Source of the DNA: Trichococcus pasteurii
Lineage (GTDB): Bacteria; Bacillota; Bacilli; Lactobacillales; Aerococcaceae
DNA: 64,000 bases
NCBI RefSeq assembly: GCF_900112935.1
Contig: NZ_FONM01000003.1
Location: 62,001 to 126,000, forward strand
Direction of reading: 5' to 3'
This document shows, one piece after another, positions 27,746 to 51,031 of the stretch. Positions within the stretch are counted from its first letter, which is position 1. Every line of letters starts with the position of its first letter. Under the pieces are notes generated by a model. It made no database searches, was not told where the DNA came from, and worked only from the letters and a program-made list of their open reading frames with translations. A program made the translations under genes and the position numbers.

Positions 27746-27981
27746 AGAAAAGCGCAACGGGTTCGTTCAGCCCTGAAAGAAATTTAGGAAATCGTGCCGA
27801 CTGAGCATCGTAGAGCGCAATATGCTGAGAGACTTCCTGCGTCAGCAGGTTAGTCGAATAGTATCCTTGGCTCGTAGAGACAAGGGGTTCCTTTGTCCTT
27901 TCCGAAGGGCTAACCCGTGGAGCTGGACATCATTTTGGATGCATGAAATAAGTTGCAAATCAGTTTAACACCTGTGGTGAT
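27746..27981. repeat. Modular structured repeat or ncRNA candidate, copy A
   Basis: This 236-base element recurs in inverted orientation at 50773-50951. In plus orientation its shared blocks are: an eight-base AGAAAAGC (27746-27753); an identical 38-base block (27756-27793); an identical 20-base block TGAGCATCGTAGAGCGCAAT (27802-27821); a 40-base block with two differences (27899-27938); and AACACCTRTGGTGAT (27967-27981), which can form a small hairpin. ACGGGTT (27757-27763) pairs with AACCCGT (27912-27918), and AGCCCT (27769-27774) with AGGGCT (27906-27911), making a 13-bp closing stem with a five-base bulge. The middle, 27822-27898, is specific to this copy and has its own hairpins, including CCTGC-GTCA-GCAGG. 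I see no ORF. The direction of transcription is unsettled. On the minus strand it would follow the rpsT terminator, behind a TATAAC box at about 28002-28007. Confidence 0.8.
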
Positions 27982-28026
27982 ACGTTTTTAGTTTGATAAG
28001 TTATACAAATTACTTTACATACGAAA

Positions 28027-28070
28027 AAGGCCGAAGACGGACCAGTTGGACTGGTCTGTCTTCGGCCTTG
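28027..28070. terminator. rpsT terminator, possibly bidirectional
   Basis: AAGGCCGAAGAC..GACCAG pairs with CTGGTC..GTCTTCGGCCTT around a five-base loop. On the minus strand it is followed by CCTTTTTCG, suiting rpsT. Confidence 0.85.
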
Positions 28071-50452: not shown

Positions 50453-50668
50453 ATGATGTTATATCCTTCGATCGATAAATTGTTGGAGCAAGTGGATTCA
50501 AAATATTCAATGGTCATTCTTTCAAGCAAAAGAGCGCATCAATTGCATGATCGCTCTGAGCCTTTATTGGATACTTACCAGTCATTTAAGAATGTAGGAC
50601 GTGCGCTGGAAGAAGTAGTTGCCGGCGAATTGGAAATCGATCCGAATTCCATCATCCCTGAAAGATAA
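50453..50668 (+). CDS. rpoZ: RNA polymerase omega subunit
   Basis: A 71-residue omega subunit that helps assemble RNA polymerase. The pattern MLYPSIDKLLEQVDSKYSMV, AHQL and the C-terminal NVGRALEEVVAGELEI are typical of Gram-positive omega. Two adjacent ATGs are possible starts (50453 and 50456), with GGGAG seven to ten bases upstream. A terminator at 50687-50730 follows, which separates it from priA. Confidence 0.94.
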   Translation: MMLYPSIDKLLEQVDSKYSMVILSSKRAHQLHDRSEPLLDTYQSFKNVGRALEEVVAGELEIDPNSIIPER

Positions 50669-50686: not shown

Positions 50687-50730
50687 AGACTACTGTTTTT
50701 GAACTTCAAAATCAGTAGTTTTATTTTTTT
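50687..50730 (+). terminator. gmk-rpoZ terminator
   Basis: ACTACTGTTTTTGAA pairs with TTCAAAATCAGTAGT (one mismatch), followed by a T-rich tail. Confidence 0.88.
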
Positions 50731-50772
50731 GATGCCTAAGCAAATTATAAAACATTTTTAAACCAAAAGTGC

Positions 50773-50951
50773 ATCACCATAGGTGTTTCACAGGTTCACA
50801 AAATGTTCCGTGCTTCCCAAAATAATGTCCAGCTTCACGGGTTAGCCCTTCGGAAATTAGATAAATCTGACCCATTGCGCTCTACGATGCTCATTCAGGG
50901 CCAGATTTCCTAAATTTCTTTCAGGGCTGAACGAACCCGTTCAGCTTTTCT
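50773..50951. repeat. Modular structured repeat or ncRNA candidate, copy B
   Basis: This 179-base inverted copy of the element at 27746-27981 carries all outer and inner conserved blocks. In plus-strand order: ATCACCATAGGTGTT (50773-50787), a 40-base block (50817-50856), ATTGCGCTCTACGATGCTCA (50874-50893), the 38-base block (50904-50941) and GCTTTTCT (50944-50951). Only 17 bases replace the 77-base middle of copy A, yet these extend the stem: AAATCTGACCC-side bases pair with GGGCCAGATTT, forming an inner helix. On the plus strand it follows the rpoZ terminator behind a TATAAA (50746-50751), and the T run after the closing stem could act as a terminator. No ORF is evident. Confidence 0.8.
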
Positions 50952-51031
50952 GATGCCGAAAAACTCTGGGAAGACTTTATCGGCGTAATTTAGTAATATA
51001 GTTGTTAGAAAAAAGAATGGGAGGGCTATAC

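Follow-up and report, generated by a model that had tools for sequence, protein, structure and literature searches.

The boxA-boxB-boxC (BOX) elements of S. pneumoniae and the BOX-type repeats of S. suis are described as short, intergenic, modular repeats with optional inner modules, predicted to form a hairpin upon transcription, over-represented between convergent genes, thought to be parasitic, and reported to have terminal inverted repeats and target duplications (PMC3049150). RUP is presented as a non-autonomous, intergenic, hairpin-forming, multi-copy repeat (PMC3049150), and Efa-1 of Enterococcus faecalis as an intergenic repeat of 163 nt with 65 members and a predicted adjacent stem-loop pair (PMC2267715). 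BOX-type repeats are an old puzzle, in that both their mode of movement and the relevance of their fold are unsettled. ERIC and MITE-like bacterial repeats are also non-autonomous, intergenic, hairpin-forming and multi-copy, with MITE-like repeats carrying inverted termini and duplications, and group IIC introns insert beside terminator hairpins in a fixed orientation. Efar is another Enterococcus repeat.

Our literature search found no apparent description of the repeat that we report here from Trichococcus. The window, a 64-kb stretch of the Trichococcus pasteurii genome (G000; its congeners are G001-G012, and loci are labelled L plus a number), contains copies A and B, which the original prediction had described as sharing conserved blocks and pairing arms around a swapped centre. 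The two identical blocks are present and exact (38 bases, AACGGGTT...GGAAATC, and 20 bases, TGAGCATCGTAGAGCGCAAT), as is the 40-base block with two changes between copies A and B (TTTCCGAAGGGCTAACCCGTG...TTTTGG). Copy A lies on the + strand and copy B on the - strand, in opposite orientation as proposed; both pairing arms are retained in both copies, and the centre (GCGCAAT to TTTCCG) is indeed unrelated, with 77 bases in copy A versus 17 in copy B. The predicted location was right and the predicted extent too narrow, the real ends, read by eye from filled and empty sites, being wider (A, ~27746-28016; B, ~50738-50951). Both copies are intergenic, copy A between holA and the convergent rpsT and copy B between a gmk/rpoZ-like pair and priA (ORF 50453-50668, beside gmk, we ourselves read as rpoZ-like). 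The claim that copy A has no ORF stands insofar as the ORFs listed inside it are all short, at up to 48 aa. The features of the window are as follows.

27746..28016, + strand: copy A, whole element, delimited by eye from filled and empty sites; right end uncertain by ~10 bp
27747..27821, + strand: 5' half of the copy A core, with the GAAAAGC... outer stem, the AAATTTAGG strand and the conserved TGAGCATCGNAGAGCGCAAT hairpin
27822..27898, + strand: optional domain M3 of copy A, two hairpins predicted; replaces the inner-stem 3' strand of copy B
27899..27931, + strand: 3' half of the copy A core, TTTCCGAAGGGCTAACCCGTGGAGCTGGACATC
27932..28016, + strand: 3' tail of copy A
28027..28068, no strand assigned: terminator-like hairpin adjoining copy A at its 3' end, read from the sequence; the genes on either side, holA and rpsT, are convergent
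50824..50950, - strand: copy B core, short form with no optional domain; inner stem AATCTGGCCC / GGGTCAGATT
50738..50823, - strand: 3' tail of copy B
50951..50958, - strand: left flank of copy B, CGGCATCA; the unoccupied site of 10 congeners has this stretch a single time (G000 and G002 carry the element)
50730..50737, - strand: right flank of copy B, AGGCATCA (CGGCATCA in G002); apparent 7-8 bp target repeat
50689..50720, no strand assigned: terminator-like hairpin adjoining copy B at its 3' end, read from the sequence; located downstream of gmk and the rpoZ-like ORF

The element is two-copy, as had been proposed, only inside the 64-kb window. Across the T. pasteurii genome, blastn with copy A as query returned 69 pieces at E <= 1 (1e-144 for copy A itself, 2e-79 for the next), covariance model R1 returned 33 matches, and merging at 450 bp left 42 places, 32 with an R1 match and 40 with a blastn match, several of which are fragments. 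The likeness is well outside what chance would give. The same blastn query found matches at E <= 1 in 48 of the 60 genomes searched (the own genome counted) and matched all 12 congeners, each with many copies, at 6.5e-50 or better, and its best matches beyond the genus were at 9e-21 (G058), 2e-8 (G023) and 3e-8 (G036). Among the matches listed from a pattern scan, most were from Trichococcus; four hits (L149, L160, L177 and L185) we took to be chance because the remaining parts of the element are absent there. Separately, MUZD contigs labelled Sedimentibacter sp. SX930 (L152, L156 and others) carry the Trichococcus repeat, and the name of that record looks wrong.

Comparison of filled and empty orthologous sites shows that the copies are insertions. 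Site A is filled in G000, G002, G004, G005 and G006, truncated or rearranged in G008, and empty in G001, G003, G007, G009 and G011 (G010 and G012 unread), whereas at site B G000 and G002 have the element, ten congeners lack it and G010 is too diverged for reading. The L013 site has the element in four genomes and lacks it in eight, its ends being too old to read; the L020 site was excluded, its right flank not being orthologous. A recent duplication and nothing more, which the original prediction had named as what might be left, would fit the presence of two similar stretches in one window. However, the element occupies 42 genomic places, has relatives across the order and covaries, and since sites A and B are filled or empty in other species, the pair is not a simple recent duplication. 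Copy number and empty sites already refute this explanation, the probability of which we regard as practically nil.

Younger insertions were examined in G001, for which eight sites were prepared, five compared and four read (L286, L288, L301 and L302; L287 was left out). Of the fetched genomes, 8 are empty at the L288 site and two have a 3' tail remnant there (L440 in G008 and L441 in G011), and the L301, L302 and L286 sites are empty in 11, 2 and 3 fetched loci, respectively. The L288 site is possibly occupied in G004 as well, and the L286 site in G002 and G003, so these insertions are not necessarily unique to G001. At the four sites, joining the two flanks as read by eye reconstitutes the empty site to within 0-2 bp, and a test for target duplication in 47 young copies gave no signal (233 of 500 permutations reached the observed score). 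The young G001 sites show that an 8-bp duplication, as might be read at sites A and B, is not general; site B is an exception, with 7-8 bases repeated at its flanks. No terminal inverted repeat was evident by eye at the ends of the element. In the left flank, ATAA is favoured (A 61%, T 68%, A 74% and A 89% at positions -4 to -1) over 121 sites, which were derived from 165 copies by likeness of the left flank, assuming one copy per genome per group. Remnants with only the 5' part also occur (L066 and L068); L066, in G000, is the 5' terminal hairpin alone, and at the same site in G006 (L333) there is an apparently fuller element. At about position 1500 of L013, L025 and L094 (in G000, G011 and G006), a gene presumably for a cation P-type ATPase, as judged from its frame, has a copy at its 3' end, and its last codons and stop apparently fall within the element.

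The inserted unit consists of a core hairpin of ~125 nt and a 3' tail of ~85 nt, and takes up to three optional domains, M1, M2 and M3, each at a set position; of these, copy A carries M3 and copy B none. Conserved ends with an exchangeable centre, noted originally for two copies, thus extend as optional inner domains across 165 copies, which were collected by searches and are not a random sample: 98 have no domain, 20 have M3, 15 M2, 12 M2+M3, 8 M1+M2, 7 all three, 3 M1+M3 and 2 M1. Each of the three is predicted to be a hairpin domain, and compensatory pairs number 0 of 24 in M1 (10 sequences), 3 of 11 in M2 (28 sequences) and 2 of 23 in M3 (19 sequences). At L055 an M1-like domain is nested within M3, and an M1-like stretch was seen by eye in another genus (L035). 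The domain set varies at a given site: between holA and rpsT, the element carries M3 in G000, all three domains in G002, a shortened M2 in G004, M2 in G006 and none in G005. Of the 27 sites from which at least two distinct copies were sampled, 17 have differing sets.

The helices of the core covary. In an alignment of 39 sequences (37 from Trichococcus, one from an E. faecium plasmid and one from G023) with 36 consensus pairs, 13 pairs have changed on both sides, against 3.2 in shuffled alignments and 4 at every slide; paired cells make up 97.2% versus 94.1% when shuffled, and the covariation score is 0.103 versus 0.056. None of 500 shuffles reached any of five covariation measures, in a test where relatedness alone can beat shuffles and where the structure, coming from the same alignment, is favoured over slides. 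Examples from the inner stem are AATCTGTCC/GGACAGATT, AATCGGTCC/GGACCGATT and AATCAGTCC/GGACTGATT, and a further one is AAATTTAG/CTAATTT versus AATTTTAG/CTAAATT. The covariation that the original prediction had proposed to look for is therefore present, and its alternative, a structured RNA carrying an optional arm, is supported by these helices and the optional domains. The window contains no Rfam match at gathering score; six element loci searched against Rfam 15 at E <= 5 gave ten matches, all under the gathering score, the best (E 0.0036, 33.7 bits versus 55.8 required) in the host-terminator region of L007.

Mismatches in the paired columns bear on which strand folds. Alignment A2 has 99 G-U, 8 A-C and 32 other mismatched pair cells, and alignment A3 has 94, 17 and 68; per mismatch type, G-U is well above background and A-C is at background in both, as expected if the strand read here folds, with the G-U excess confined to few columns (pairs with any G-U versus any A-C, 10/6 in A2 and 15/13 in A3). 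These counts support, but do not prove, that the read strand is the folding strand, and RNA and single-stranded DNA would both fit. A 5' terminal hairpin could form instead of the outer stem (mean -9.2 versus -5.4 shuffled in A2; -6.5 versus -4.0 in A3), and a 3'-terminal hairpin folds better than shuffled sequence in A3 (-4.9 versus -3.4) but not in A2 (-4.4 versus -4.9).

Where its tail is intact, the 3' end of the element abuts a strong hairpin. We examined the right flank at the 47 of 121 sites with a recognizable right end, which were picked by likeness to one young tail and are not a random sample (the other 74 were left out here and from the duplication test). The right flank begins rich in A (on average 7.1 of 12 bases), the hairpin then follows, and its mean fold at the 47 sites is -19.1 kcal/mol, compared with -8.4 for the left flank and -9.9 for random stretches (Mann-Whitney P 3e-11 versus random; Wilcoxon P 9e-8 versus left). 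Folds at or below -10 were found in 41 of 47 right flanks, 11 of 47 left flanks and 46 of 104 random stretches. By a strict terminator rule, right flanks qualified at 43 of 121 sites, left flanks at 12 of 121 and random windows in 31 of 253, so most of the 121 sites fail that rule.

Such a position raises the question of whether the element serves the messages in which it lies. According to a simple ORF rule, 36 of the 121 sites are between convergent genes (+-), 33 are antisense to both genes (--), 32 are sense to both (++), 15 are between divergent genes (-+) and 5 are incomplete, all as raw counts; by the same rule, an upstream gene is on the same strand at 70 sites, 32 of which lie 0-10 bp past its stop codon. 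Proximity to stop codons, the covarying fold and the adjoining terminator-like hairpins would all suit a cis-acting RNA element retained for its use in 3' untranslated regions, as a stabilizer, processing site or terminator helper. Against such a role, however, copies are antisense to both neighbours as often as sense to both, and sites are not conserved, copy B being present in 1, absent from 10 and unread in 1 of the 12 congeners. The equal frequency of sense and antisense copies suggests that the fold is selected for the benefit of the element and not of host messages, and we consider a cis-acting function quite improbable.

We think it likely, instead, that the repeat is a non-autonomous, selfish, BOX-type mobile interspersed repeat, with selection acting on its folded strand. 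Copies would be made in trans by an enzyme that recognizes the folded sense strand as single-stranded DNA or RNA and sets their 3' ends against the A-rich foot of intrinsic terminators, which may be harmless landing places. Once settled, copies would have their interiors remodelled, either through recombination with sister copies or through the loss of entire hairpins, and effects on host mRNA, such as 3'-end stability or termination, would be by-products.

One candidate for the enzyme is an IS200/IS605-type (Y1) transposase, moving the element as single-stranded DNA. Little or no target duplication at the young sites, folding on one strand, the ATAA-preferring left flank and a 5' terminal hairpin able to replace the outer stem would all be in keeping with such a transposase, and IS200-type (Y1) transposases are present in 12 of 13 genomes (47 matches). 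Yet a search covering IS200-type transposases found no mobilizing enzyme: by blastn, none of the 20 of 47 Y1 loci that were fetched shares ends with the core, tail or M3, and at L390 (G001:C1:1611884), where an IS200-type transposase gene is immediately beside a copy, it merely neighbours that copy. The 3' hairpin, no better than shuffled in A2 (though better in A3), and the balanced orientation relative to genes also speak against this mechanism, which we judge unlikely. Alternatively, a folded sense RNA could serve as template for a reverse transcriptase that uses the T-tract strand of a terminator as primer, with the 3' end of the RNA joined to the A-tract in a SINE-like or group IIC-like mode of targeting. 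Such a retro-mobile RNA would account for the fixed position of the folded strand relative to the A-rich tract, for G-U rather than A-C mismatches, for the near absence of target duplication and for the 3'-end-only remnant that L440 and L441, from two genomes, have at a single site; remnants of the 5' part alone also occur, however, and there is no match to an Rfam intron family, and we give this route only a slim chance. In this family, orthologous sites that are filled, empty or re-modelled, covariation on one strand and a likely target at the terminator foot together make the question of mobilization testable.

Related elements extend beyond Trichococcus. At E <= 1e-3, R1 matched 75 of 295 genomes of the order, in 20 of 74 genera (the own genome and four congeners included); the scan applied strict filters and scored 11 candidates in each genome, such that its copy numbers are lower bounds. 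In genus g38, related units of ~120-123 bp form tandem arrays; several of the units at L353-L363, mostly from g38 genomes, were seen by eye to adjoin an apparent ribosome-binding site of a gene on the opposite strand. Sixteen g24 genomes, chosen for an earlier match in the order scan, all rematched R1 at E <= 0.01, G211 doing so 31 times (best 2.8e-6), and most of the 16 fetched g24 sequences retain the TAGGAAA...TTTATCT strand pair. Among plasmids, a 54-base piece was found in 11 E. faecium records; an E. faecium-type element, identical to the G213 copy, is whole in 11 of the 13 matching records, and the remaining two (one E. faecalis, one E. casseliflavus) have a 58-base 3' piece. Neither a g38 element nor domains M1-M2 had a match in plasmid records or in phage records, three of which gave trivial matches to the element (E 0.7). 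In viral_contigs the element pattern was without a match, and the hit L409 is a chance match. These observations suggest a common fold for repeats in Trichococcus, in Enterococcus plasmids and in further genera of the order. That they form an order-wide superfamily of SINE-like, modular folded RNAs or single strands, copying themselves to the A/T-tracts of intrinsic terminators and swapping domains in place, seems to us rather unlikely.

How, then, does the Trichococcus repeat compare with known systems? Like group IIC introns, it lies beside terminator-like hairpins in a fixed orientation; unlike them, it has no Rfam intron match and no long reading frame, and the opposite strand folds. It differs from MITE-like repeats in having optional inner domains and no general duplication. 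Efa-1 is similarly an intergenic repeat, with predicted stem-loops, in a Lactobacillales genome. We located BOX loci by primer pattern in 10 of 147 g24 genomes, the genus to which G211, with its 31 repeat matches, belongs. With filters off, the best R1 match in 12 BOX-bearing loci (16.3 bits, E 0.022) was away from BOX, and nhmmer searches in both directions against BOX loci indicated no kinship (best E 0.14 and 0.78). The BOX-likeness originally proposed therefore stands as to a multi-copy, inserted repeat with optional domains, though no sequence homology with pneumococcal-type BOX was detected. In organization, both have conserved outer parts and optional inner modules, and the excess of convergent over divergent sites (36 versus 15 of 121, as raw counts) is in the same direction as in BOX. 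Unlike BOX, the Trichococcus repeat is without general terminal inverted repeats or target duplications, and instead of repeated boxB copies its optional parts are three different domains at three positions. The Trichococcus repeat resembles BOX in how it appears to work, without detectable sequence kinship, and its covarying one-strand fold, optional domains that differ between copies of one site and preference for the terminator foot would make it a BOX-type repeat with new features.
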